Below, in pieces: positions 1,142 through 49,744 of a stretch of 64,000 nucleotides of DNA. The notes under the pieces were generated by a model. It was not told the origin of the DNA. It made no database searches and saw only the letters and a program-made list of their open reading frames with translations. The stretch's first letter is position 1; every line of letters begins with the position of its first letter. The DNA is from Monosiga brevicollis MX1 (taxonomy: Eukaryota; Opisthokonta; Choanoflagellata; Craspedida; Salpingoecidae), in assembly GCF_000002865.3 (NCBI RefSeq), contig NW_001865052.1:883824-947823 (forward strand). The letters are read 5' to 3'. A program made the position numbers and the translations under genes.

Positions 1142-2419
1142 TCAATTCGAATTCAAAGCTTTCAAAACATCAAGCAGCTTTTGACTGTCGGGCGCTGCTG
1201 TGGCTTCCCCTCTCACACAAAGCTCCATCGACTCGATCAGGCTCGGCAGCTCCTTAAGCGCGTGCTCCTCGTGCACCGTCGGATGCGCTGCCCTGTTACC
1301 ATCGCTGCGCACACTATTCAATGCATTGAAAAAGTCGTCCAAATTACCCAGTCGTGGGAGCACGTCAGCATACGCTTGGACTGCCCACTCCTGAAGGCCC
1401 GGCTTCCACTTGTAAAACAAGGTGTGGAAATCTTCTGTGTCTGCTGGACACCCCTTCTGCGGAACACGACCTCGGAAGCCATCGTCTTGCGCCACCTGTG
1501 CGGTGGCCCAGTCCATGTACTTGAACAGCAGACGAAGCCGGTGGATGTCATCGTCACACGGCCATGAACAAGAGTCACTCGGCCAAAAGCGCTCGCCCAC
1601 GATTGTGGCGAGCTTGATGATGATTTGGCGCTTCAAGATGGGATACTTCAGCGTTTGTCGGATCGTTTGAAGCTCCGCCTGCACCTCCTCCATCTGTTGC
1701 TCGTGTTTGGTTTGCATTTGCTCGATCTGTTCCTCTTGTCGCTTGTTGACGGCTTGTTGTTCCGTGAGCTCGTCCCGCACCTCCTTGATCTGTTCCTCTT
1801 GTCGCTTGTTGACGGCTTGCTGTTCCGTGAGCTCGTCCCGCACCTCTTTGTTGACGGCTTGTTGTTCCGTGAGCTCGTCCCGCACCTCCTTGTTGACGGC
1901 TTGTTGTTCCGTGAGCTCGTCCCGCACCTCCTTGTTGACGGCTTGTTGTTCCGTGAGCTCGTCCCGCACCTCCTCCATCTGTCGCGCGTGTTTGGTTTCC
2001 ATTTCTTCCAACTTACCGAGCATCTCGGCTCGTAAGTCAGCATACGGAAACTTGTCCAGCTCGCCTTCAATCAAATTCAGGCGATTCTCAGACCCGTCCA
2101 TTTGAGCAAGGGCCTCTTTGACCTTGGACATTCTGCTCCAAGCATTCATGTCACTGCTGGCGTCGATCGAGACGTGTTCAACACCAGACAAAACCCCGTG
2201 CTCATTCCACAGCTTCGAGCGCACGTTCTCGGATTTATTCTTGTAGGGCTCGTAGAGTGCGTGCTGCTTCTCCTCCAGCTCGCTACACTTGGCATCTACA
2301 ACAAAGGCACGATCGGTGAGGTCTGCCCGCTAAATGGCCCGTGCTGCAGATACAAAGCCATTCAACTTACCAAGGTCGCGACACTTGACGAGGTGGGGAG
2401 TAACATCCCACCAAGTCAT
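1142..2419 (-). CDS. Satellite-borne coiled-coil protein, long form (copy 1)
   Basis: Two exons, 2371-2419 and 1142-2322, are joined across a 48-nt GT-AG intron (GTAAGT donor, GCAG acceptor) and give 409 aa. The N-terminal third is charged. It is followed by five copies of EVRDELTEQQAVNK, a 14-residue (two-heptad) repeat that predicts a long coiled coil, two of them followed by an RQEEQI-containing linker. The C-terminal ~170 residues are globular and end with VRSDGNRAAHP. That resembles the R-x2-GN-x-A-x-H signature of HEPN-like/DUF4145 domains, but this is a motif match only. I do not recognise the family. The start ATG sits about 55 bp from the telomere-like tract, so the promoter lies in or beyond that element. 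Confidence 0.7.
1740..1975 (-). repeat. In-frame 42-bp coding VNTR in the coiled coil
   Basis: Tandem 42-bp units each encode one EVRDELTEQQAVNK block. Copy 1 of the satellite has five, whereas copies 2 and 3 have a single variant block (T changed to K). The 42-bp step keeps frame and heptad register, so the rod can lengthen by whole two-heptad increments. Confidence 0.85.
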
Positions 2420-3391: not shown

Positions 3392-3596
3392 CGAGGCACC
3401 TGTCATCATGCAGGGCTCCAACAAGAGAGATGCCCGACCAGACGCCGGCTACCGACCAGACGCCCTCCACGCGGTCATAGACGGCGCTGGGCTCGTCGTC
3501 AACATTGTACGTGAGCTGCCGTCGCCACGCCCGTACGAAATAAATTCAGTGCATGGGCCGACAGCACGACCCCAAGCATCAGCCTGGCCCAGTGTA
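3392..3596 (-). pseudogene. Membrane-module head relic inside satellite copy 2
   Basis: Same relic as in copy 1, with a few base differences; for example the copy 2 and 3 version retains the GTxCGTGAGCTGCC-type segment closer to the functional exon at 9.8 kb. Confidence 0.55.
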
Positions 3597-6067: not shown

Positions 6068-6272
6068 CGAGGCACCTGTCATCATGCAGGGCTCCAACAA
6101 GAGAGATGCCCGACCAGACGCCGGCTACCGACCAGACGCCCTCCACGCGGTCATAGACGGCGCTGGGCTCGTCGTCAACATTGTACGAGAGCTGCCGTCG
6201 CCACGCCCGTACGAAATAAATTCAGTGCATGGGCCGACAGCACGACCCCAAGCATCAGCCTGGCCCAGTGTA
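6068..6272 (-). pseudogene. Membrane-module head relic inside satellite copy 3
   Basis: Third copy of the same captured fragment, almost identical to copy 2. Confidence 0.55.
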
Positions 6273-8887: not shown

Positions 8888-9883
8888 CTACGCGACACCC
8901 CCATGGCTCGCCAAAGCCGCCTCCTTGGCCACTGTCTCAGGGTCATAGCAACACCTGACGCAGTACCCGCGAAAGAACAAGGTGGCCGCGAAATATAGCA
9001 CAAAGCACCCAGATGCTCCCCACGCCAACACTTGAAACAGCTACAGGTCATTAAAGTACAGCAGAGAGTCACGGCCCAGGTCGCAGCCGCGCACACGCGC
9101 ATCAACATGAGAGCTAAAACAAACAAAGGCAACGCCGAGCTCTCCAACCACAGATAACTGACAGCCGCCAAACTCACAATCTCAATCTCAATGCCATACA
9201 GGCGCTCAATGGAGAAGGGCAAGGCCAACAGATAGAGCAGAATGGCAAGGTAGATGGCCATGCTAGGCATCAACAACATCGGCCCGAGACGCTTGAAAAA
9301 AAGCCCAATGTGCCTAGCACCATCAACCACGTTGTCCCACCCATGCATTACGGCATGAAGCACAAGAAAAGGAGAGCAAACGCCCACAACAACAACAACA
9401 ACGACAACAACGACAACGCCTGTTCCGCCGATGCACATTGCACCCAGCCTTCTTGGTTGTCTCAACTTACGTCAGTGGGATGAGGGAAATATTCATCTGG
9501 TACACTGTCGCCAGAAAGGTGGCCGCCAAGCTGCAGCAAAGCGACGAAAAGATACAGACGACATACATGCGCGAAAACTCCAGCGAGATGGCGCTTCCAG
9601 TGCCAGATGGTGCCAACCCCTAGCAACCCACACAGGTACCGTGGGGTTTAGCTGTAATGTTCCCAATGTCATTCCCAGTGCCCTGCCGCCTCCCTGCCGC
9701 CTCCCTGCCAACCAAGGAAGCACTTGCCTTTTGCAGGGTCAGAAACGAGACGCCTGCCAGCAGGGCTCCAACAAAAGAAATGCCCGACCAGACGCCGTCC
9801 ACGCGGTCATAGAGGGCGCTGGGCTCGTCGGCATTGTACGTGAGCTGCCATCGCCACGCCTGTACGTAGCGAATCCAGTGCAT
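8888..9883 (-). CDS. Single-module multi-pass membrane protein, unknown family
   Basis: Four exons (9728-9883, 9471-9619, 9097-9313, 8888-9040) close in phase to 224 aa. The first intron has a GC donor (AAAG|GCAAGT). About six hydrophobic segments are visible: one after VDGVWSG, a long one or pair after SLEFSRMY, one after FKRLGPM, and two or three near the end. The layout and several positions match each module of the four-module gene next door. The C-terminus KEAALASHGGVA aligns with REALACQTSDGV at the end of that gene. The ATG at 9883 is a choice; the frame is open upstream, and splicing to the larger gene cannot be excluded. I recognise no known family. Confidence 0.6.
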
Positions 9884-10067
9884 GGGCCGCCAGCACGACC
9901 CGAAGCAACAACCCGGCTCGGGCACGCCGCGCACATGTACGACTTGAGAGCCCGTTGCTGCTGCACATGTATTGAACGAGTACAAGGTACATCGTTAAAA
10001 ACTTTAGCACCGCTCTTCCAGAAAGCACCAGCATACACCTTGGAATGTCACGGGCTCAAAGCAGGAA

Positions 10068-13000
10068 CTACACACCGTCGCTTGTTTGGCAAGCCAAAGC
10101 TTCACGCACTACGCCCGAGGTCGCGTGCTCAACAAAATATAGTGCCAAGAAGTAAAGAGCAGCAAAACCAATGGCAATGCCCCTCGTAGCCCAGGGAATT
10201 CCCACATCCTCGTAGACCACCTAACAAGACACGATTCGTCATTGACAAATGCACCCAAATTGTACCTCGACGCATGGTCACAATGCTCGTGGTGCATACC
10301 TCAACGAAAACACACCAGCTGGTCACGGCAGCTAGCACACCTAAGCCCATCAGGACGGCAGGGAAATACAGCACGTGGCGCAGCTTGAAGACAAACATTT
10401 TAAAGCTCTCCAAGGGCACAATAGCCATGACGGCTGACAGCAGGGTACTGATACCCAGAGCCAAAAAGTTGACGACCACCGATGCCAGGCCAAAGTAGGC
10501 ATAAAGCTGAACTCGAGTGCTATTCGAGGCCTGTGGCTCGCACATCGGAGACAAGCAAGATGAGATATACAACCTCCATGCTCCCACGCCACCCTAAGGA
10601 ACGACTTACCCGCGCCAGTTGCACTCCTGAATCCGTGACTGCACTGGTATCCATGGCCTCTTCAGGGAGCTGCGTTTTCATACCAAAACAAATGCCGGCT
10701 GATTCACACAAAACAAATCGAGGCTATCACGACGACCACGGCCTTGCTCACTGACCTCGCGCAGTAGGTCGAAATTGATGGCAGCCACCAGTGTTGCCAC
10801 AACTGAGAGGCTGTTATAGGTTGAGCGTAGCGAGACAAAGGCCTGTCGGTCTGACGTGTTAGTACGCGCCAGAAGCGCAAATAGATAGCCGCCTGTCATC
10901 CATTGCAAGACTGTCTTTGAGGCGTGGTGATCGCGACACAAATTCTGTGTCCAGAGTGATCGGACGAATGAGATATCGGCGCGCCCCACTTTTGTCCCCT
11001 TCGTCGCCCGGGGCCTCAGACGAGCCAGCGACTCGTGGCTGGTGCGCACCTTGAGGAGATGGTTCTGATGCGACTCTCGAGGAATCGCTTGCACGATGTA
11101 TCCACGATAGAAGACCATCAGCAAGCTCGCTCCACCAATCATTCCCAACGCAGCCCATGCCATTTGACGCTAGCAAAGAATTATTAGTATCGAGAAGTGC
11201 AGCGCGGGAAGATGAGGACGGACAAAGCCCGTGCTGGTAGCATCTCATCGCCTTATGACAACGGCGATGCGCAGCGAAGAGAGTGCACAGCGATGTAGAA
11301 CAAAAGGTCAACCAGCCTCGGTGCCGCCTCTTGCTCCACCTCACTCAAAACACTGACAGTCTCGCCCGAACGAAACTGATACCTCATAGAGGATGAAAAT
11401 GATGAGACTCAAGGAGCCCGCAAGGGAGGCAATACCCAAGACAAGCAGGAGATTCGGTAAAAACATAAGGTTGATCTTGGTCAGCAACCAGGACTTGAGT
11501 GCAGATTCGGGAACGGTGGCCAGAACGAAGGTCATCACAATCGAGGTGAACGTAGATGCCAGGTTGGCAAACAGGGAGATCAATGCCACCGTCAAAAACG
11601 GTGACAGAAGATGGCTGTCGGTATTGTACTCGGCAAAAGTCTAGATTATGGAGATTAGACGCAAGGAAATGCTGTGAACTTCACGCGTGGGAGCATAGCA
11701 GACTTTTCAACCCAGCCCTGCCACCAACTTGAAGGAGGACAAAGGAAATGAGCGACACGAGTGCAGAGATGGTGGCCGTGTTGTTAAACATGTTTGACGT
11801 TCGTCGAAACAGACGTGAAGCACGGACGCCACTGTGAATGGTCTTCTCCCAAAACCATCCAAGAGTCAGAAAATTGAGTCGATGCTTGCGTTGCCGATCT
11901 GAAGCCAAGGGCAACCCGTCTTTGAGAACAATCGTAGCAGCATCGACGGATATGCTCAAACCTGTCTACACTGCCTCTACCAAGTTGTGCAAAAGCTACC
12001 TTGACGAGAAGCGAAGGCAAAGTTGGATATGACAGCAATAGCCACGAGCGCAACGACAAGCGCGATCAAGGCCAGCGTTAATCGCCACTCGGAGGTGGCC
12101 GTACCATGGATCACGGTCACCATGTTTGGCAAGGCAACCAAAAAGCAAATCAAGCCTGACGCAGTAAATCGAGCAGGTGGTGTCAGACGGGCCTTGGACA
12201 TGATCGCACAGCATGTGGCGGCAGGGTACCTCATTTCAATGAAAATGGCAATGCACGCACCCAAGATGGACAGGACAAAAGGCAACCCAGCGACAGAGTG
12301 ATACCGCAGCAACATGCGCTGGGCACCGTCTTTGCCGTGATAAAAGAGCGAGGCGATGAGAAGAAGCGTGGATGAAAGGACGGCATACATGTTAAGGGCT
12401 ACTGAAAGGTAGAGGCTGGTGGCGTAGATGAGCATCACTGAGTATTCTGTGCTGTCGCCGGTTGCAGATGAAGGACGCAGCCAGAGGCCTTCAAAGCTGA
12501 TGCCTCCGATGATGGAGCTCACAATCGAGGCTGTGATCCTGAGAGGTGGTGGGGTGACCAGAGCAATCAGCGATGAATCAGAAAGAAAGGCGACATTGTC
12601 GCGTTAACGGCGTCAAATTCGTAAGATTGAAGCACCACACCAGAGTTCACGCATCCGTTCTGCCATGTGGCTTGAAGGGGTCCTAGAGAGCATTCAGACA
12701 CGCCCATCCGGCCAGTGGAAACAAATGAGAAAACAGACGAAAACACGGGCTGTCTCTGGCAGACCAGCGTGAACCTGAACCTTGCTGCACACCTGGACTC
12801 GGCGAGGTGTAGAAAAGCTTTTGAAAAAGTGAACAAGCCAATAGTCCAGCGCAAAAGGGTGCTCACGCAACCTAGTACACATGCCCGTCTTGAGCAAGAA
12901 GCAGATGCTGTCGCTTGAACAACAGGGGCGAGGCACATACCGTGTGGCTTTGGTGTGGCGTCTGTATTTGGCTTGGTGAGGAGCACATAGAGCAGGGCTG

Positions 13001-14531
13001 GTCCAAAGAGAGCAAGCGAAACCACGAGACCGCCAACTGCGATGCGATACACCTTGCTCAAGCCACAGATCAGATGTGAGAAAACCATGCATTATGATGT
13101 TCTTCGTGTGGCCTGACATCGGCCTTGGTATACACCCGATGAAGTCGGAACAAGAAGCATAATACCCGATGCGTTATACGTCACATTCTGACACACACGC
13201 GCGCGTGCGCGCGTGTGTGTGTCGCCCAGCTCCCTCAAGAACTAACCTCGAGAGTATCACCGTAAGTTATGAAGCATAGGGAAATGAATGCACCCGTCAA
13301 CAATTCAAAGCCAACGAGCAAGAGGATGGCTGGTAGAGCAATGATGTACAGCGTCTGAGTTGAGAGGCCCAAACGGCCATGATGAGATCCCCCAGTGCAA
13401 TGTCAATACACAGCTGCACGAAACCCGCACACACCTTGCGTAGGGTGTAGCGCACAGAGCCCTTGGGAACCAACAACAAATTGGCCATTTGCAAGAGTGC
13501 CACTACCACTGCGAAGCAAGATGCATAGATGTGCTGAGCAAGGACGTATGGAACCAACGGTCGGCACCAGATCTTACCGGCCAAAAAGTTGACGCCAAAA
13601 CTCAGCGAAAAGACGAGGCCATATCGAAGGATGTACTCGTTATCTTCTGAGCTGGAGTCAGCAAAGGTTGGATACTCCAAGATTCCCACCTGAATGCGTG
13701 AAGCATGGACGTTAGGCTTTGAACTTGGTGGACGGCGAGGTCCTTCCAGCAGACTCATCATGCACCTGAGAGATGGCGGCGCAAAAGGTGGCAACCACGG
13801 CCAAGTCGGACCAAAACGCAAGAAATCGCTTATGTAGGGCGCTCTCGGACAGGCTAAAGCAGCGATCGGCCAAAGTGGCAAAGCGTAGACTGGTCAGAAC
13901 GGCATGCCCCATTTTTTGACGAAGCAGGCGCGTTTTAGCGGCCCCATGACATACCGCGAGTTGATGAGTTGTCGGAAGTATTGGGCAAAAAAGATGGCTT
14001 CAAACATGCCACAGACGCACCCGACATGCGTCTGCGATGAAGCAAGCGCTCGCATGAGCCTGGTCACCCCAAGTTCCCACTTCAGGTGCTCAGATGAAAA
14101 CGCAAGCATACCGAGTCTGAAGTGTTTTCAGCGACATGATGATCAGCTTCTTCGTCCTCACTACTTTCGGGGTCTTCAGAAGCAGGCGCTAGGGCGTCCC
14201 TTGCTGCCTCAGGAGCGGCATGCTCCTGGGCCACGTCTGGGGCACCGGCACGACCGGTCGAGCGCTTGCTGAAAATCTTCTGGTTGATGACGTGGTCATC
14301 ATCCTCATCTGCGTTGGTCTGGGCCACCAAGACGTGCGCGGTAGTCTGCTCTTGGCTGGCATCATCAATCGAAGTTACATGCACGTTTCGCGGCGTGGCC
14401 AGATCATACGCCCCCGCACGGGATGTCGGTTGTGTCGCAATCGTGGGCGTCAACCGCTCAGACGAGCTCAGCTCGAGAGAAAAATCCAAAGTTGTCGTCG
14501 GTTCCCCAGGTTGGCGACTAGAACGAGGCAT
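10068..14531 (-). CDS. Four-module multi-pass membrane protein, unknown family
   Basis: Fifteen exons are proposed: 14112-14531, 13955-14031, 13766-13889, 13435-13689, 13247-13354, 12941-13052, 12793-12907, 12641-12682, 12000-12538, 11729-11961, 11383-11640, 10756-11169, 10610-10669, 10300-10506, 10068-10220. All phases close, giving 1038 aa. Residues 1-140 are acidic, Ser/Thr-rich and presumably cytosolic. Four repeats of about 225 residues follow, each with roughly six hydrophobic stretches. The core of each repeat is alignable around VPKGSVRYTLRK, GKDGAQRMLLRY, VPESALKSWLLTK and VPLESFKMFVFK, each followed by a Leu-rich membrane span. I see no voltage-sensor Arg ladder, pore loop, GPCR motif or transporter signature. 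The intron at 11962-11999 is only 38 nt, so that junction is the least certain. Confidence 0.6.
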
Positions 14532-15156: not shown

Positions 15157-18100
15157 TCAGGCCTTGACTGGGTACTGCAAGTTCGTAGGTGCTCCATACA
15201 CCACGGTGGCAGCTCCATTGAGGTATGGAAGTGTGCACATGGGTCGAGCTTGCGCCGTGGCAGCGGCAACATCAAGGGTGGACTGCCCCTTGGGCGTCGC
15301 GAAGCTCTGTGGTGCCCATGACAACAAATGTATCCAGACCATAAAATGGAAGTGAGGAGTGAGCCCTTGCGAAGAGACAGTGCCCTTCCACCACAGCAGG
15401 GCAACAGTGGATGGGTGCGCGCGAACAGCCAGAGCCGGGAACAGAAACCGCGCAATCATCTCACCTCCAGCAGATGGCGGGTGACCATGTCAATGTCTCG
15501 GTCTGTCACGTCCCAAAGGGTGCCCACGGCACAAGGCGCTCCGCTCAGAAGGCAATCCACAATCATGCCCGTGGGCTCAAATTCGCCTTGTTCACGCAAG
15601 AGCCCAGAGCTACAGCCCATGAGCAAAGCTGCAGCACGTCCCGTCGCACGCCGCACCGTCTTGGTCTAGCCACGTGCACAATGCTTGTGATCCATGCGTC
15701 ATCAACAGCCCCCAATCACCACAGAAAAAATAGCCACACGTACCTTCACATATTTGGAGCCGGCTCCATGCCCACAATACAAGAACAGGTCGGCTTGTTC
15801 CAAGCTTGTAATCATCTATTTGTCAGCATACAACCGGACTTGTTCCGTGAGGGGCCTTCGAAATAAAAAGCGAAATGGCAGCGGGCCGCGCACATCACGA
15901 TTGTATGTATAGACTCGGGCATACCTCCTCGGAGGTGGGCAGACGATCGTGGATACCCTGCCAAAACTTGGCTTCACAAAGCGGAAGAATGCGGTCTGGA
16001 AGGCGATGGGCGGAACAGGACGTGGCAGGTGAAGCCAGCTTGACGAAGAAGCCAAGCGTCGCCAGGCGCGGTGGTCAAGCGAATAAGACAAGCTCGTGCA
16101 CCAACCACGAGTGTTTTTGAGATCTCCGGCTGGGTTGATTACGTAAGATGCGCGCGACACTTGGATATTGTGTTGCGTGCTTTGAGCCAGAAGGTTCCAC
16201 GATGGTTGTCGATACACGGTGTGCGCCCTCAGGCTTGGCATCGACTCCCACGGCAGTGACTGGCCGTCTGTATGCGGGTCGCGGCACGCGCACGGTGAGC
16301 AACACTACGTGCATCAACTGACTGGCGATGCGTCTTAGTCGGAGCCGATGCGTACCTCGATCTAGCAAGAGAGACACTGGAGCTCGCCGCAGCTTGCGCG
16401 AGGTGGCCAAGCTGCCGCTGCCGCAATGGGACGCACTGTCGCCTGGCTTGCAACCTTCCTCAAGTCCACCACCTGCGTCACCAAGCACCCCGGCTCCAAA
16501 GCGACGGCGCTGGCGTGCATGTGGTCGAGCTGAGGGTGGCAAACGGCTTCGAGCTCGGCCCGCCATGGGCGTTGCCATAACGGCAACGTCTCGATCAACA
16601 TCTTTGTCTTCATCATATCCTGCACGCTCAGTGCTGTTGTCACTCCCGCTTGTGATTGTCACGTGCGTATCCGCATCCACCGGTAGCTAATAAGCAGACG
16701 CGGGTCAGCCCATGAGTCATTCACCATCATGCACCCCCTTGAGCCAGCGACATGCTCACCTCAGACCAAGCTGTGGCCACGTTGTGCACCGCCTCTGAGA
16801 CGACGTCAACGATCAGTTCTTCATCAGTCCCGTCCAAGTCGCCAAACAAGTCTTGCACAGCTTGAGAAAGATCCATGTACATTTTGGGAAATGCATCAGC
16901 CAGGCCTTCCACCAAGCTGGCCAAAAGCTTCTCTTGGGTTGGCAACAGCGGTCCATGCTTGGTGGTTGCGATTTCCTGTGCGCAGCGTTCCAGTTCTTTC
17001 TGCACAATTGCGCGAGCAGCTGGCGCCACAAGTGGGCCCAGAATGAGGCCTCGCCACAGGCCCAGCACATCAGCTTCGAGCTGGCGACAAAAAGCTTGGA
17101 CTTCATTGTCTAGAGCTCGTCGTTGCCGCCACCATTCCACTTTGTCGTTGTCTGTCTGAGTGGGTAGCTTGATGGAGGCCGTATTGGCCTCGCGCAGCTT
17201 TTGCATGCGACCTTGCAGCTCTGCCAAAACGTGACTTTCCTTGCCCAAGCGCAGCAGCACTGGTCCGTCCACGTCTAATCGGGAGATCACGATATCGTAT
17301 TTACAAGCAAAATCTTGAGATCCCTGCACACCCACGACCACTCCGCTCGTGTTTGACGCTGCCTCTCTCAGACTTTGTTGCAGATCGCGTAGTAGTTGCA
17401 CGCTAGTTTGGGTGGTATTCCTATTGCATCGGTACGTGAGGGGCGGCGAATCAGGGCGTGCAGGATTCATGTCAAGGCCAGTCTTACCAGCGATCTAGCT
17501 CTTGCATTTGTCGTTGAGTAGTCACGCCCAGAGAGGCATAGTGATGGAGAAGTGCCTTTTCCGGCGCCTGGACGCCATAGGCACGGGTCAAGGCAGCATG
17601 GCACCGTCGAGCTTCAGTTGCAGCCAGGTGATTGTCGTGGGCCAAGATTCGCTCAAGTTCGATTGTCCAGGCTGACAAAGACGTTGGGAGGCAAGGTGGG
17701 GAGGTGGACGGCGAATCCTTGTTTGCTTCCGACACTTGAGGTAGGGTGGGCGGGGTCTCGGTAGCATAGTGGCTCTCCAGACGCTCAATCAGCTCTGCCT
17801 TGCGTCCTGACACGGGCAAGCCGAGAGCTCGGAGCCGATCTTTCAGCTCAAGTACTTTGAGTCCAGCCCAATCCGTTTGTACACCATTATTATCAGCACT
17901 GCACGGGTACGTTGCTTCATCTGCCGTCAAAGTTGCAGCGTCGAGTTGAGCTGCAAGGTCATCAACCGCCCGCTCAACTGGAGCCAATGGTGGCGCCATA
18001 CTGGCTGCACCTTTGTGATGTCGCCAAGCGCGTGCTACGTTGTCTTCGTCCGCAGTCAGTACAGCTGCAACGCGAAAGCCCAAGCCAGGTTCTGCGACCC

Positions 18101-21100
18101 ATGACTCTGCTTCGAGCAATGGCGGTGCTGGTGAGCTGTCCACCAGCATCAAGAGATTGCGCAGATCAGCTGATAGACAGGAGTCGGCGGCAAGGGCAGG
18201 AACGTTGAGCAGCTCCCCAACACGGCGTAGTTCGCAATGAAAGGCACGCTCTTCTTCAGCGGCATGGTGGGCCATATCTCGCGCGCCGCTCAAGTTTCCA
18301 TTGACTAAGGCTACATAAGCTTTGGTGTAATACCACCGACCAGCGAGATACCGGTTCCTTGCAATTGCCGCCTCGGCCGTAGCCAACTGCGCTTCGGCAT
18401 CGGCGACGTGGTGAAGTTGAGCCAGAAGCAATGCCAAGCGTAGCTGGGCTAACGCTTTGAGGTCAAGACTGTGAAGGCTATTGGCGTACTCAATCGCTCG
18501 CTCAAGGTATACCTGAGCGTCGCGAGGCAGACCTTGGTGTTGTGCAAAATTTGCCGTGTCCAAGAGAGAAAAGATGAACTGGAGAAGTAAAGACGTCCGG
18601 GCTGGGTCCGCCACCGCTACGGTGCGTTCGAGCTCGGCCGTAAAGCGTGCAGCAAGGCGTTTGCCCACTGCCAGTGCTTCACCCGAAGCTCCGCGGTGGT
18701 AGTGCGCCCAGGCAATGGCTGCGTCCGTTTTCCAATAGTCCGATGGTGCTTCGGCTTTGAGTTGCTCTCGCAGCGTCTCTAAGCGGGCTTGAATGTTTTC
18801 CGCATCAGCGGACGTCTCATGGGCGGTATGAAGGCGCAGTGCCAAGGCACGCAGCTGAGCATCCACTGGGTCATCAACTCCAACTTCAGCAGCTGCCAAC
18901 AGCATGTCCAGGGTCTGTGCCCGGCCAACCCGCAGCAACACTTCTCCGAGCTCTGCATGGACGGCGAGGTGGGCATTGCTGTTGCTGCTTCTATTTTGAG
19001 GGATGGCCCCTTGAATGCGCGCGATGCTCCAACATACAACCATCTGATCGGGAAACAGAGCATGAAGCAGTTCCATGGGGTGATTTGGTGAATTTACAGA
19101 GGGCCCATAAAATTCCAACGAGCGCATATTTGCGGTGCACGAGAAGGCTTAGTCTTACCTGATGCAAGGGGAGAACCAATTTTTTGAGGTGTACAGCCGC
19201 CCATTCGAGCACACTGCGAATCAACTCTGCAAGGGCAGCGTTAAACTCGGTTTCAGCCCTACAAATGAGATGGCAAAACACCAATTCAAAGGGACGAATC
19301 ATGTAAAGCTCTGCTGTTATGCTGAAATAGCGCACAGCTCAGTCAAGACCTTTGCAAGGAGGAGTGCAAAGGTTAACGTACAGCAGCTGGTCCAAGGCAT
19401 GCAGGTGCGTCAATAATGTAGCAGGGTCAGCCGTGGTGTCTTCTTGGTGCTTCATCGTGCCATCTACAATCGCATGCAGAATCGCTAGCAGAGATGTTGG
19501 CGTTGATCTTGGGCTTTTCAGGCCATCCAAGCTCGGCTGAAGACGTTTGCGATCAAGGCCGGCTGGCAGAGCAAGGACCAGGCGGCTTAAGAGGTCCACG
19601 TCACTTCCCGAGGCCGTGAAGACCAAAGCCACTAGCTCGGGCACGACTGTGCCGCGAGTGATAAGCGAGCGATGCGAGGCATGTAGACATTTGAATGTCT
19701 CTTCGATGTCCTCTGTGGGTACAACCGCGCGAAGCACGTCTTGTGGGGCAGTAAGATCATTGGTTTTGTCAGGAGACGCTGTGTGGCTTGTTGATAAGCA
19801 CTGCAAATAGCAGACTATAGCGTCAGCGCGATAGGCGGTGTCCGTCATGTGAGGCGTAAGCCAGCGCAGGGCCACTGCCACCAATTGTTCTCCGACAAGC
19901 AAATCTGACGCCCGTGTGGCCAGTTTGGTGGCTTGTTGCAGGAGCTGAAGGCGAGCAGTGCGCCGATCCGAAGTGGCCTGGCCGTCAGCATGGGCCAGCA
20001 ACAGGGCCAGAGTTCCGAAAGCTATGGCACGGCTACTGTCTTTGTTGCTGAGTGCAGCCACTCCTTGGTTGTAAGTTTGGACATCAGCCACGTGCAAGAG
20101 GCCGCTGTAGCGCGCGGCTAATGCCTATTTGACGATGGGGGCGGGGTTGATGTCAATCGCGCACACAGGCGGCCAAATGGGCATTGGTGCATTTGTGGGT
20201 GGAGTCGGGACACAAGAGGAGCAGGCAGCAGACCTTGCTAGTGTGAAACCGAGCAAGTGCCGAAAGACACGAGAGAATGCCCGGAAAGGGGGTTGCAGGG
20301 TTCGTCACGCCCCACGTGGCTAGTGTGGCCTAACGATGTGGCGACACAAGCCAAAATGAGCGCTGATAAAGGCTGGTCCAAGAGCGTCGCACGACTTACC
20401 ATGGCAGCCCAGGCTTCGGGGCTGACAAGTTGACCATCGGCTTGTCCAGTCTTTTGGAACATCGCCACGATGGCTGTGACAACGTCTTTGGGACAAGGCC
20501 TGCCGCTTCCTGCAAGCCAAGCGAAGCGTCAAGTCGATGTGTGAACTGACAGGCATAAGCGATGTGAACAGCGCAATCACATGAACTGGATGCCCAACAC
20601 GTACTCAGTTGTGCGGCAGCGTATGTGGCGACATAATTGGCTAGAGGTGGGCCTGCGTTGGTTTGAGAGAAAGCCAAATCAGTGGTGTGAGGTACAGGTT
20701 CTGTACTCATGGGATTTTAACAAAGCGACGGGTATGAAAGGTCATCATCGCAGCGAAATTGCAGCAAGGGCACTATCACGATATGCGCCATCATTGCAAT
20801 CATGACATACCAAACCAGGAGGGTGACCAAGAGCTGGGGATGGACTGAGGTGCCTCGCCCGCAACGCACAGGCGAACCAACCAGCACACCCACTGCACGC
20901 GAGCATCCTGCTGCGGCAGGCGGTTGAGAAGCGCGAGCGTTGCCTCTTTGGCTTGCAAACGGGCTAAGAAGCAGGCTCCAATTTCTAGCCGACCAGGTGA
21001 GGCTGGCCTCAGGGCCGGGTGGGCGAGAAAGTGCTGCACAGCTTGCTCAATGGCGACCCTAGCCGTGTTGTCTGCCTTGAGGATGGTCTGCAGTCCTGCT

Positions 21101-30977: not shown

Positions 30978-33105
30978 TCAGAGTCTGTCGAGAATTCGAA
31001 TACTAGTTTGAATCTGCGATGCGAAAGAAAGCCGTGGAAAACCGTAAGTCAATAATCTTCATCCGGGCTGATTGGCAGGAGTTTGGATCAAGCGGAGTAA
31101 ATGCCAAACGCGAATGTTACGTGGCCAACATACTTTTTGTAATTCCATTTCCTCCTCAGTTCGCACAGCAACCATCTGCGAGCACAAGTAAGTCCGACAT
31201 GAAAATCGATCATTACGGCAGTTGCACGCAATACAGGCTTGCACTATTTATTCTGAAGCAGGATGACAGGTCTACCTGTGCGTTGAGTAGCTTTTCTTGG
31301 GCAACGGCAATGCGCCTGACAACCATTTCCGTCGTTCTCTGAGCCATGGAAAGAAGTTCCACGTCGTGGGCAACCGGCTCAAGCGCTTCTTGCTTCAGCT
31401 CCAAGGCCATTTCTGCCCATACCTCACCAGCCTTGAGGTTCAAATACTGCTCGATAACGACCAAGGTGATCTGATGTTCATCAGGCATCGGATTTTGAAG
31501 CGCACCAGGACGCTTTTGTGAGCAACAAATACCTAGCAAGGGAACTGAGGCTTTGTCATAGGCATCGCCAGGCATAGGAACTGACCTGGTCATCCAAGTC
31601 CAGCATTCTGCGACAACGCTGAAAGGTGATGGCACTGGCAATGGCAAAGATGCGCGAGCGCTCGTTTTCCAAAACCTCGAGAATTGCAGGGCTAGGTTGA
31701 GTCCCAGGCCGAGCCTCATCACTTTCGACCGTCAAAGGCCCGCTGCCACAGGATAAGGGATAGAGCGTGGGCAGATCGGCACTAGTGGCAGTGCCGGCCA
31801 GCGCGATGTTCAAAATACTGCCAGCTTCCAGGTGAGGGCAGCCTATCCGAGTGTTGCAATCGCGCCATAAGCGACAAAGTAGCGATGCAATGCTGGCCCG
31901 TGGGTTTCCGCTGCCCTGCCACTGCAAAAAGTGTCGCAAGGCATCGTCATGATCGCATAAATCCGCCACAAAGCCCATCAAGAGCGAATGTAGATTGACC
32001 GGGCCTGTCTCGAGAAGGTCCAAAATCAAGAATGCGCCCTCGTGCTGCAGAAAAGTGCGAAGATTCAGAGCGCTACCGTCCACCACGGCCCTGTTGACGG
32101 TAGTGCGGGTAAGGTGAGCTGCGGCTGCATCACAGCAGGGCGGGTGTAGGGCCAAAAGCAAGAACGTGTGCAAGGCAGGGAGGTGCCAAGGCTGGCTTAC
32201 CAAAGCGCATCCAGGCTGGCAATGATGAGGGCGTTGGGAGTGTGCTGACTGTCGCGAAGATATGCCAGGACAGTCTCGACGCCTCGGGCACCAATTTGAT
32301 CGCGGGCATCCGAGAGGCGCAAGCATAGCGCACCCAAGATCATGAGAGCATACATTTTCAAATCAAAAAAGATGCTATCGGCTCGCTTGGGTAGCGGCTC
32401 ATCCAAAAAGTCGATGAGCAAGGTGGCGAGCCCCTGGTCCAAAAGATCATGTTGCGTTGCGAGCAGATCAGGTGATGGGTCATTGACCAGAGCCAGTAAG
32501 GAGCGGAGGATGTATTTAATGAGGCTGCGGTGGCCGTTGTTGGTGGCAAGATCTTCAACGGGCTGCTGGCTGCGCGCATGGGCAAAGTCACCCGTCGCGT
32601 GAAAAGCATTGCCCGCACCGGCAAACAATCGGGCCTCAGGACCCGTCGAGCCTGGCGAATCTTGCATGGCCCAGGCGAGAAGATTCACCAGCACACCATT
32701 ACCCCGGACGTCAGTGTAACCGCGCGGCACCCGGGGGAGAATCTGAGCTAACAAGGAGAGCACAACGAGTTGCAGCTCCTCAAACTGTGGTGCACTCCAG
32801 CTACGGGCAAGCTGTTCACCATCCTTGTGCAGATATGCCATGAGAACAGGTACAAGGCCTGCATCCTCCAAAACCTTGCAGGCTGCTGGTTCTTGGCTGT
32901 ATTGCGCGAGGAGCGTAAAAGCGGTTTTAGCAAAGTCAAAATCTTCCGGCGCTGTGGTCCATCGCAGACGACGAAGGTCGAGGTGTCGCGCCGAATTCAA
33001 ATCCGCACTTCGCAACAGGTCCACCACCAATTCCAAGACATTTGCTTCCTGCCAACGTAATGGTCACATGAATGTATCAGATCGGATCGTATTGAGGTGT
33101 GTAGT

Positions 33106-33183
<78 letters not shown>

Positions 33184-34537
33184 AGAGAGAAGTCTCTGAG
33201 TGGTGGTATGAGTGAATGTGTTGACTGTGAATGTAAGGAAGGCGCACAACATATGCGGGCAGGACCAACGATGACCGTACCAGCAAAGCTGCGCGCGCAG
33301 CGGGAATGTCACTGGCAAGGGTGACAAGGAGAAGAATGTCGTTGCGAATGGCACGCCTGGTTTGTGAATTGCCTTCAAAGGCAGCACGCTGCAAAGCTTG
33401 GTAGAGGCAGACGGCCACGGTTTGAAGTTCATCAGTTGACTGCTCAAGAAAATCGGCACGTTGCGGATGCGCAAGCATTTTGAGCAGGAGGTCAAGCACA
33501 AGAGCGCCTTCGGGGCTAGCAAATTCTTGCGTCTGCTGAGCCAGGCATCTCGAAAGGAGGGGCAAAAAGCTGCCTTGGAGAAGAATGCCGACCCCATGAT
33601 CTGTAACTCCGACGTGATTCAGAATGTCGAGGAGGAGTCGCTGCATGTCATCGCTCAAAGCCGCGGGCGCGGATGATGGGTTTAGGGCATGAGGGGTGCT
33701 GTCCTGATCACTCTTTGAGTGGGATGGGTGTGCTGGGGTGGATAGTGCAAAGGCACGAGTCAGAGCGGCCGCAGCATCCTGCACAAAGTTGGAAGAGAGG
33801 ATGGCGCGAGCGACCATGCCCAGGATGCGAGCGGCGGGTTCCGATTCGGCCTTGGCCTGCGAGGGTCCGTCGCGCACAGGAGCAGCCTTGCGCAGCGAGC
33901 CGTTGAGGGAGGCGTGGAGGGATGCGGTCATATGCAAAGCGTCGCCCAAAACGCTGGCTTGCTCGAGGATGGAACGGTCCAGGTTGAGAACAATGGCGTG
34001 CATAGTTTCAATCGCAGAGACACAGAGGCGGGGTTGAGGGACGGAGAGGAGGTTGCCGAGCTCGTCGAGAAGTTCGCAGATGCCGGTTTGCAGGTCATGG
34101 ACCTGTTGGCGCACGTGCAACATTTCAGGCGTCACAACGAAGGAATGCTGAAGGGGCACGATGCAATTGATCAAAGGGTCAAGCAGAGCATCTGCTCCGT
34201 TGGCAATGCGCTGAGCCAGGCACGCGACCAGCCGAGCCAGGGCTGGAGCATCACTAGCGCGATAGCCACGAGCGTTTCGCTTGGCCACCTTGGCCAGAGC
34301 ATGGAGATGGCGCTCCAGCAAATCTCGAGAATATTCGTCCTCAAGGAGTTGGAGAACTTTGTCCAAATCAATGGTCTTGTCAGAATGAGCTTCACTCTGC
34401 GACTTGCCACTGAGCGTGGTAGTCATCCCCTCGAGGCCCTCAAAGGCGCGCGCCACACGCCCACGCCCGGACAAGGGCCTGGGCGGTACCTCGCGGTTAC
34501 CGGTAGGCGGTCGCGGGGCAGGAAGCGTATCGGCCAT
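30978..34537 (-). CDS. CFAP69: Cilia- and flagella-associated protein 69
   Basis: An armadillo-like axonemal protein needed for flagellar structure in animals. Six exons (33281-34537, 32201-33048, 31586-32090, 31276-31512, 31134-31175, 30978-31013) close in phase to 974 aa, against about 941 in human. Diagnostic matches include RAIRNDILLLVTLASD, SAPQFEELQL, the GNGVLVNLLAW...GNAFHATG segment, DALWAVVDG, GAFLILDLLE with WQG, EQYLNLKAGEVWAEM and the short last-exon match MELQK-IQTS, which fixes the C-terminus. The product is helical throughout, with no signal peptide or membrane span. The first intron contains a long (CA)n run. The start ATG faces RIF1 across a divergent promoter. Confidence 0.93.
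33102..33180. repeat. (GT)n microsatellite in CFAP69 intron 1
   Basis: About 36 uninterrupted GT units on the + strand, lying inside the intron between exons 33281-34537 and 32201-33048. Confidence 0.95.
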
Positions 34538-35301
34538 GTCGATGTCTGGTATGGTGATGTTGTTCGAATCGAATCAAGGCCAGTGCCGCCGAAAAGGTGC
34601 AGGGGGACCAAGGTGGTGACCCAGGCAGTCCGGATGAGGGTGCGTAGGATCAAGTTGAGGCGTGCGCAGACCTAGGCCGGCATTGCGGCGCGTCGCGCTT
34701 CGGGGCACCTGCTTTGTTAAGACCGAATGACAGGCGCAGTAAGACGCGCTGGATTGTCCAGGTCAACCCCCGCAAGCCTTTGCGGTCGCTGATGTCGAGC
34801 CCGATTCAAAACGAGCTTTGCCAACGGAACAGCAGGCGGAAAGAAAGAGAAATCAATCAAGCAAGCAAGGTCCAGAAAAAATAAAAAGGCCAAGAGCAAG
34901 ACAAGAGCAAGACAAGAGCAAGACAAGAGCAAGACAAGAGCAAGACAAGAGCAAGCCAAGAGCAGGCCAAGAGCAGGGCAAGAGCAAGCCAAGAGCAAGC
35001 CAAGAGGCAGACAGAACAAGCCCCCTCCCCCACGAGCCAACAGTCTCCTTCAGCAGGTCAGGAAAAAAAAAAAAAAAAAAAAAGTTGTCGGCGATGATCG
35101 GGGCGTCGTCAAGGTCAACAGTTACCAAATGACATTCACTCTGCCACCATGAATTTCTGACATTAGTATCTGACATTTTGAATGTCACGGCGTGTGTCGT
35201 GCTGTGCTGGTGGTTTTATGGTGTGGCGCTTGGCGCAGGTGTTACAGTTACAAACAGGTGTTGGAAAGAACCGTTGACGAGAAACGGCGCTGCCGCCGAT
35301 C

Positions 35302-48638: not shown

Positions 48639-49744
48639 ATGGCCGTGCGTAACCCCCGTGTCTTCTTCGATGTCGCCATCGGCAGCCAGCCCGGTACGTA
48701 TCTCCGTGTGGCTCCCCCGCGCCGTGGGCCTGGTTCGGTTGGGGAGGGGGTTCCTTGGTTTGCTTGGAACTGTTGATACTCCCTCCGCTTGGCCTTCCAT
48801 GCTCTCTCTCCCTCTCCCTCTCTCCCGTGCGTGCTGGGACATGCATGGCTCCAAGACCACTGGCCGCAAGTGATACCGAAAGGCACTTGGGCATCTCTGG
48901 CACCGTTGGCTTTGCAGCTTGGGTTGAAGGAGAATTGGGGGGCGCCAAGTGCACAGATCAACTCCTTGATGGCTTTGCTCATGGGTGGACTCAATGGGTT
49001 TTTTTTTTTCTCTTCTTCTTCTCCTTCTTCTTCTTGACCCTTCATTTAGCCAAGCGCATGGTTTTCGAGCTGTTCAAGAAGCAGGTGCCCAAGGTACGGT
49101 TTCTTCGCTACGCTTGGCCCGCCCCGGGCCAATGCATCAAACGACATGTCGGCATTGTCTCATGTCCTGGTTCGTTTTCAAATAGACGAGCGAGAACTTC
49201 CGTGCCCTGTGCACCGGCGAGAAGGGCCTGGGCGTTTCCCAAAAGCCCCTCCACTTTAAGAACACCCGCTTCCACCGTATCATCCCTCAGTTCATGGCTC
49301 AGGTTTGTTTGGACCATCTCCTCTTGGTCATTTTGCAGGAATGGTGGCTCCTTCTCCTCCCTCATCAACCCCCTGTCCTGTCTCTTCTTTCTCGGCTCGC
49401 GGTCCTGGTCCGGCGAACGGCAGGGCGGCGATTTTACCCATCACAATGGCTATGGCGGCGAGTCCATCTATGGTGCCCGCTTCGAGGACGAGAACTTTGA
49501 GGTGCGCCACGATCGCCGTGGCCTCTTGAGCATGGCCAACGCCGGACCCAACACCAATGGCTCGCAATTCTTCGTGACCATGGTCCCCACTCCCCACCTG
49601 GATGGTCGCCACGTCGTGTTTGGTGAGCTCGTGTCTGGTTTCAGCGTCCTTGACAACCTCGAAGCCATCGGCTCTGGCAGCGGCACGCCCTTGGAAGACG
49701 CCATCATCCAAGACTGCGGCGAGCTCGACGAGATTGACGAGTAA
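48639..49744 (+). CDS. PPIA-like: Cyclophilin-type peptidyl-prolyl isomerase
   Basis: Catalyses proline cis-trans isomerisation; probably cytosolic, as no targeting sequence is seen. Four exons (48639-48693, 49050-49093, 49186-49302, 49424-49744) close in phase to 178 aa, a typical single-domain length. Seen: [20 protein letters not shown], the catalytic FHRIIPQFM with Arg and Phe, [32 protein letters not shown] and [13 protein letters not shown]. The residue equivalent to Trp121 of human CypA is His, which is seen in some larger cyclophilins and usually weakens cyclosporin binding. A loop insert of the divergent-loop type (around [12 protein letters not shown]) is present. Confidence 0.95.

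Follow-up and report, generated by a model that had tools for sequence, protein, structure and literature searches.

The PGG domain (PF13962) of plants is a membrane domain linked to calcium and immunity, and ACD6 carries one such domain per chain. In the literature consulted on it, the domain is described from plants only. Its start is marked by a Pro-Gly-Gly motif, it is accompanied by ankyrin repeats in plant proteins, and wheat Tm11 has a single PGG domain per chain (PMC6449310). In Xenopus oocytes and HEK cells, ACD6 increased the influx of Ca2+ (PMC11387256), and WeiTsing is a pentameric plant ER Ca2+ channel (PMC10441888). Multi-PGG genes are known from wheat; of eight that are tabulated in one study, six have five PGG domains and two have four, and the eight proteins, 761–1024 aa in length, are described without listing other conserved domains (PMC6449310). 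For a wheat protein with five PGG domains, TraesCS7B03G0323100, 17–20 spans were predicted; it is the candidate for the Stumpy mutant, in which the root phenotype is conditional on external Ca2+ (PMC10861616). The authors of that study report that they found no Ca2+-transport domain and that other mutant lines were not Ca2+-conditional (PMC10861616), and the Ca2+ link of this five-PGG protein is that of a candidate only.

Here, we analyzed a window of 64,000 nucleotides from the choanoflagellate Monosiga brevicollis MX1 (contig NW_001865052.1, positions 883,824 to 947,823). The initial annotation had placed a one-module gene beside a four-module gene on the minus strand at 8888–14531, and this arrangement was upheld by our gene models and by leave-one-out profiles. 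The one-module gene (8888–9883, minus strand) has four exons (9883-9728, 9619-9471, 9313-9178, and 9040-8888) encoding 197 aa, and its intron 1 is GC-AG as read from the splice sites. The four-module gene (10068–14531, minus strand) was modeled as an open frame of about 965 aa in 17 exons, of which exons 1–9 are 14531-14112, 14031-13955, 13889-13766, 13689-13578, 13508-13435, 13354-13247, 13052-12937, 12871-12765, and 12659-12641, and exons 10–17 are 12538-12261, 12155-12000, 11919-11729, 11640-11383, 11169-10756, 10669-10610, 10530-10300, and 10220-10068. Its 16 GT-AG introns were picked manually from the sequence. Support is weak for exons 12871-12765 and 12659-12641 and for the donor at 12936, and the exons linking modules 1 and 2 (12936-12539) are the uncertain part of the model. 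An N-terminal region of 140 aa, in which acidic and small residues are abundant (14112–14531, minus strand), precedes module 1. Modules 1, 2, 3, and 4 lie at 12937–13889, 12000–12659, 11100–11919, and 10071–10890 of the minus strand, respectively, where the lower boundary of module 3, within exon 11169-10756, and the upper boundary of module 4 are approximate.

Two stop-free stretches with lengths divisible by three are better read as introns, judging from their splice sites and the module alignment: one of 69 nt in module 1 (13509–13577, minus strand; GTAAGA..TCGCAG) and one of 105 nt in module 2 (12156–12260, minus strand; GTGCGT..CGTCAG). Models and modules in which both were translated are called unrefined, and those in which both were spliced out are called refined. 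Without 13577-13509, span 2 of module 1 aligns gap-free to module 4, and without 12260-12156, span 3 of module 2 aligns gap-free to the one-module gene, so that removal of both makes the modules align nearly gap-free. The earlier model probably translated both introns as well, and its protein lengths of 1038 and 224 aa are replaced by 965 and 197 aa in the refined models.

The five modules are homologous, each with four spans, and the repeated-module architecture proposed initially is supported by leave-one-out profiles. With refined modules, the leave-one-out HMM scores of modules 1, 2, 3, 4, and the single module were 51.8, 27.0, 48.0, 48.3, and 38.2 bits, respectively; the maxima of the shuffled controls (n = 1000, local composition kept in 12-residue blocks) were 11.5–18.4 bits, and the real score was reached by 0/1000 for each module. 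The unrefined models gave 16.9–42.7 bits, also with 0/1000 shuffles each. Pairwise Smith-Waterman comparison of the unrefined modules bore out the similarity for nine of the ten pairs, for which only 0–7 of 300 shuffles were as good; the pair of modules 2 and 3 was not distinct from shuffles (78/300). In the models, phase-0 introns occur just 3′ of span 1 and span 3 in modules 1, 3, and 4 and in the one-module gene, the intron after span 1 lying about five residues earlier in module 1 than in the other three, and module 2 has neither. The one- and four-module genes probably arose via tandem duplication.

Hydropathy analysis of the refined proteins at a cut-off of 1.5 revealed 14 stretches for the four-module protein and four for the one-module protein; span 1 of modules 2 and 4 fell under the cut-off and was placed by the alignment, giving 16 spans in total. 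Hydropathy and alignment thus give four spans per module and about 16 in the large protein, instead of the roughly six hydrophobic stretches per module and about 24 in the large protein counted before. With four rather than six spans per module, the comparison drawn earlier with four-domain 6-TM channels falls. A four-domain voltage-gated-like channel would suit four repeats in one chain beside a single-repeat gene, but the four-span repeats contradict a 6-TM cation channel of this kind, whose repeats have six spans with an S4 and a pore loop, and neither whole protein has a Pfam match at E ≤ 10, which makes this reading extremely improbable. The net charge was +21 summed over the N-terminal, middle-loop, and C-terminal parts and −14 summed over loops 1 and 3 (refined). 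The summed charges obey the positive-inside rule and support the prediction that both ends of the module are cytosolic.

The profile evidence points to the PGG domain. Module 4 alone matched Pfam PGG with an E-value of 0.0028, or 0.0013 (19.0 bits) when trimmed, which is the best score of a natural module; none of the natural modules passes the gathering cut-off of 24.1 bits, and modules 1, 2, and 3 and the single module, each searched alone, had no PGG match in Pfam. The consensus of refined modules 1–3, disjoint from module 4, matched with E = 0.0027 over profile positions 11–111 of 116. The consensus of modules 1–4 scored above the cut-off when refined (29.3 bits, E = 8.1e-7, positions 3–115 of 116) and had E-values of 1.1e-6 and 6.2e-7 when unrefined; a consensus omitting module 3 was also above the cut-off (E = 2.1e-5). 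The five-module consensus reached only 19.8 bits, under the cut-off. No PGG match was obtained with consensus sets containing the single module but not module 4, or with the pairs of modules 2 and 3, 1 and 3, and 1 and 2; among refined sets containing module 4, the consensus without module 2 had no match and that without module 1 had E = 1.4. Altogether, PGG was matched at E ≤ 10 by only 20 of the 48 module-derived queries and the cut-off was passed by 4/48, all of them consensus sequences, whose E-values are calibrated unlike those of natural proteins. None of the 47 shuffled controls, run in sets of 7, 10, 10, and 20, matched PGG or Orai at E ≤ 10 in Pfam, and the lowest E-value of any Pfam family among the shuffles was 0.025.

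The PGG tripeptide is absent from both translated proteins, and span 1 of the single module is followed by APSGTG. Because every natural module scores under the cut-off and the tripeptide is missing, we do not claim membership of the family. The description of the family as unrecognised in the initial annotation stands for the whole proteins, which have no Pfam match, and gives way where module 4 and the consensus sequences point to PGG; the profile search places the modules in a known family only partially. Judged from these sequences, the modules are very likely remote relatives of the plant PGG domain, and we hold this likelier because the cereal multi-PGG proteins share the same build. An unrelated, lineage-specific four-span family with a scaffold or lipid-interacting role, whose similarities to PGG and Orai would be convergent, is unlikely: every natural module is below all Pfam cut-offs, neither the single gene nor the five-module profile matched PDB sequences, and a conserved pore residue and the PGG motif are lacking, as such a family would predict, whereas two disjoint module sets match PGG in one register, none of the 47 composition-matched shuffles matches it, and the build of the chain agrees with that of the cereal multi-PGG proteins.

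The modules may alternatively be Orai-like, sharing a closer common ancestor with CRAC channel subunits than with plant PGG domains, with span 1 lining a pore. In Orai, span 1 carries the selectivity-filter glutamate at its outer end. A collinear profile-profile alignment over 147 columns had a score of 23.6, which 2, 0, and 0 shuffles out of 300 reached when columns were shuffled locally with windows of 5, 8, and 14, respectively, and a z of 4.4, compared with −1.1, −0.3, and 1.6 for tetraspanin, claudin, and connexin, respectively; the span-2 pattern [NH]xxAxxxST is common to the aligned profiles. With unrefined modules, however, shuffles did equally well in 16, 7, and 2 of 300 cases, the hhalign probability was just 6%, fly Orai by itself gave nothing (30/150 shuffles as good), and the host Orai by itself gave a modest result (4/150). 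Pfam Orai-1 was matched by 10/48 module-derived queries and 0/47 shuffles, the best E-value being 0.017 (modules 1–3), but the best score, 15.2 bits, lay far under the cut-off of 25 bits, and another family reached E = 0.025 by chance in the shuffles. Acidic residues occur where span 1 has its outer end in modules 1, 2, and 4 at differing positions and in neither module 3 nor the single module, and the alignment has no acidic residue conserved in span 1 across all modules. Furthermore, the genome carries a separate genuine Orai gene, and neither of the two Orai proteins tested matched Pfam PGG. The Orai similarity is weaker than the PGG similarity, and we consider an Orai-like origin very unlikely.

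Among the matches listed for the 39.5-Mb genome, there was no further intact copy, and the sole other traces were three decayed relics of the one-module gene's exon 1 on the minus strand, at 495–638 (with a stop at codon 3), 3411–3554, and 6087–6230.

With slightly better than even confidence, we favor a divergent multi-PGG membrane protein with a single-module partner, probably pore-like and with conduction inferred; within this reading, the remote PGG homology and the matching chain architecture are supported. The basic unit is a four-span membrane module with ends predicted to be cytosolic, very likely a distant relative of the plant PGG domain, and such modules may pack around a common axis in an oligomeric, cation-permeable or pore-like assembly, as reported for ACD6 with respect to calcium. 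The large protein would then be a covalently linked pseudo-oligomer and the small protein an extra or regulatory subunit. The low pLDDT of 53 in structure prediction and the lack of an acidic residue conserved in span 1 of all modules count against this explanation. Provided that the PGG relationship holds, a pore or channel function stands at about an even chance. In a more speculative and unlikely extension, five PGG-like modules would form a ring as the functional unit, fused in one chain in cereals and divided four plus one between two adjacent genes here to give a pseudo-pentameric pore, and PGG and Orai would be branches of an ancient superfamily of four-span pore subunits.

If the relationship is true, a diverged multi-module relative of the PGG domain exists in a choanoflagellate, the origin of the domain is pushed far back, the concatenated ankyrin-free form is not peculiar to cereals, and a sequence bridge is available for testing whether the PGG domains of plants and the Orai channels of animals have a common origin. 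We found no paper linking choanoflagellates to the PGG domain in a search outside which most subscription papers and preprints lay.

Compared with known systems, Orai/CRAC channels (PF07856) have four spans and both ends cytosolic, as predicted here from hydropathy and summed charges, but their selectivity-filter glutamate appears not to be conserved in the modules. WeiTsing forms a five-subunit ring and this locus encodes five modules, and the module profile matched nothing in PDB. The ankyrin-TM proteins of the ACD6/Lr14a type, with reported calcium channel activity, would be related in their membrane domain through PGG; their N-terminal ankyrin repeats are absent here (Pfam, E ≤ 10, both whole proteins). 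The closest likeness in build is to the cereal multi-PGG proteins (wheat Tm7–Tm9, CS10–CS14, and the Stumpy candidate), which likewise have four to five modules per chain with about four spans each and are listed without ankyrin repeats, a likeness of architecture only. Unlike them, the present proteins lack the PGG tripeptide, have natural modules below the cut-off, and belong to a choanoflagellate; the four-module gene has about 17 exons, whereas the cereal multi-PGG genes have 2–3, and a separate single-module gene stands alongside it.

The one-module gene (8888-9883, minus strand, four exons) and the four-module gene (10068-14531, minus strand) were both assembled from splice signals, and the unrefined models encoded proteins of 197 and 1023 aa, respectively. 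In the large gene, two stretches first seen as gaps in the module alignment are putative introns on the minus strand: 69 nt in module 1 (13577-13509, with usable flanking splice sites GTAAGA..TCGCAG) and 105 nt in module 2 (12260-12156, GTGCGT..CGTCAG), both of which are stop-free and divisible by three in length. When they were removed, the refined large protein had 965 aa; module 1 then aligned without gaps to module 4 in span 2, as did module 2 to the module of the small protein (the single module) in span 3. Because the module alignment steered this choice, the accompanying increase in internal module scores is partly circular. Two gains lay outside the criteria for intron choice: similarity to Orai rose, and the E-value of the modules 1-3 consensus against PGG (Pfam PF13962, a plant membrane domain) fell from 0.43 to 0.0027. 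Refinement left the four-module consensus matching PGG equally well (6.2e-7 vs 8.1e-7), and consensus sets lacking module 1 or module 2 matched PGG more weakly or no longer. In the one-module gene, intron 9727-9620 is of the GC-AG type (donor AAG|GCAAGT).

The repeated modules proposed in the initial annotation proved to be real. Leave-one-out HMMs built from refined modules recovered all five with 27-52 bits, and none of 1000 local-composition shuffles equaled the real score in any of the five cases (shuffle maxima, 11.5-18.4 bits). The unrefined modules gave 17-43 bits, again reached by 0 of 1000 shuffles for each module. Nine of the ten pairs of unrefined modules also stood out, being equaled by 0 to 7 of 300 shuffles; the pair of modules 2 and 3 was not distinct from the background in this pairwise test (equaled by 78 of 300). 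Four of the five modules have phase-0 introns in common, one close to where span 1 ends and one directly after span 3; the gene model of module 2 has neither.

Hydropathy and alignment corrected the earlier estimate of about six hydrophobic stretches per module to four spans in every module. At a hydropathy cut-off of 1.5, the large protein showed 14 spans and the small protein 4; in modules 2 and 4, the first span fell under this cut-off and was located by alignment. Every module had a basic middle loop (+1 to +4 each, +11 in total), and loops 1 and 3 had a total charge of -14, the exception being loop 1 of the single module (+1). These loop charges predict that both module ends are cytosolic. 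The large protein begins with about 140 residues enriched in acidic and small residues.

Neither whole predicted protein matched any Pfam family, and PDB sequences were matched by neither the single gene nor the five-module profile. Module 4 by itself matched PGG in Pfam with an E-value of 0.0028 (0.0013 when trimmed), and the refined modules 1-3 consensus, which includes no letter of module 4, gave its match in an identical register. The consensus of modules 1-4 (E=6e-7 to 1e-6) and that omitting module 3 (E=2.1e-5) exceeded the curated cut-off of 24.1 bits. PGG was matched at E<=10 by 20 of 48 module-derived queries, four of which exceeded the cut-off, and neither PGG nor Orai was matched by any of 47 shuffles, whose lowest E-value for any family was 0.025. 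Modules 1, 2, and 3 and the single module did not match PGG individually in Pfam, nor did consensus sequences including the single module without module 4. On this sequence evidence, the modules appear to be remote PGG relatives, with cereal multi-PGG proteins as the best comparison.

A relation to Orai is a lead from sequence comparison. Orai-1 (PF07856) was matched by 10 of the 48 queries (best E=0.017), more weakly than PGG and near what shuffles reach by chance. When a profile of the five refined modules was aligned with one of host and fly Orai, the score was 23.6 over 147 columns, a value reached by 2, 0, and 0 of 300 local column shuffles at windows 5, 8, and 14, respectively, and z was 4.4 vs -1.1, -0.3, and 1.6 for three unrelated four-span families (tetraspanin, claudin, and connexin). 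Against the modules, fly Orai alone gave no signal (30 of 150 shuffles as good) and host Orai alone a modest signal (4 of 150). The probability given by hhalign was only 6%. A true Orai gene lies elsewhere in the genome, on C56 (best exon, 88 bits; joined protein, 155 bits). At this gene (L021 1964-3124, corresponding to C56:44463-45623), TM1 ends SGFALVAMVELDL and the TM2-TM3 loop is long.

The 39.47-Mb assembly (57 contigs) was searched exon by exon by six-frame protein search; the queries were modules 2, 3, and 4, the single module, one exon of module 1, and two of the consensus sequences. No further credible module locus was found among the matches listed, and the module total at the locus is exactly five; weak candidate loci were examined and rejected. 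The first exon of the small gene recurs as three decayed copies on the minus strand (495-638, 3411-3554, and 6087-6230). All three carry a stop at codon 3 and an additional stretch, and they sit within tandem repeats at spacings of 2916 and 2676 bp. These repeats include a coiled-coil-like ORF (e.g., 1145-2329, minus strand, 395 aa), and 8-bp repeat arrays (2589-2895 and 5265 onward) occupy corresponding places in successive repeats. Elsewhere in the window are ORFs with a SAP domain (17487-19148, minus strand; E=3e-12), with a match to the ARM repeat of CFAP69, a cilia/flagella protein (33080-34573, minus strand; Pfam E=6e-12), and of a cyclophilin-type isomerase (48653-49741, plus strand; E=8.5e-27). 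The initial annotation treats the host as a choanoflagellate; the CFAP69-like ORF and the Orai gene would suit a eukaryote with a flagellum.

We infer the function of the module proteins from plant proteins, among them ACD6, which has a PGG domain. In a review, ACD6 is described as increasing Ca2+ influx in oocytes and HEK cells and Lr14a as a possible Ca2+ channel (PMC11387256). By extension, a pore-like or channel-modulating membrane assembly is the most likely role here, within which the four-module chain would be a covalent pseudo-oligomer. The plant channel WeiTsing is described as a pentamer (PMC10441888). The analogy among the five modules here, the five in most listed cereal chains, and this pentamer is suggestive only, and no sequence link between the modules and WeiTsing was found.

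Two tables of a wheat study contain eight multi-PGG genes without ankyrin repeats, encoding 761-1024 aa with five PGG domains in six genes and four in two, and one separate gene combining ankyrin repeats and PGG (PMC6449310). A wheat protein with five PGG domains and 17-20 predicted spans is a candidate cause of the Stumpy mutant phenotype, in which the effect on roots depends on external Ca2+ (PMC10861616). The authors of that study found no Ca2+-transport domain in it, and the other mutant lines were not Ca2+-conditional. The 965-aa chain of four four-span modules shares the build of the cereal multi-PGG proteins. Since such proteins without ankyrin repeats are already on record, concatenation as such is not new; the novelty here lies in the host, in the divergence of the modules, and in the separate partner with a single module.
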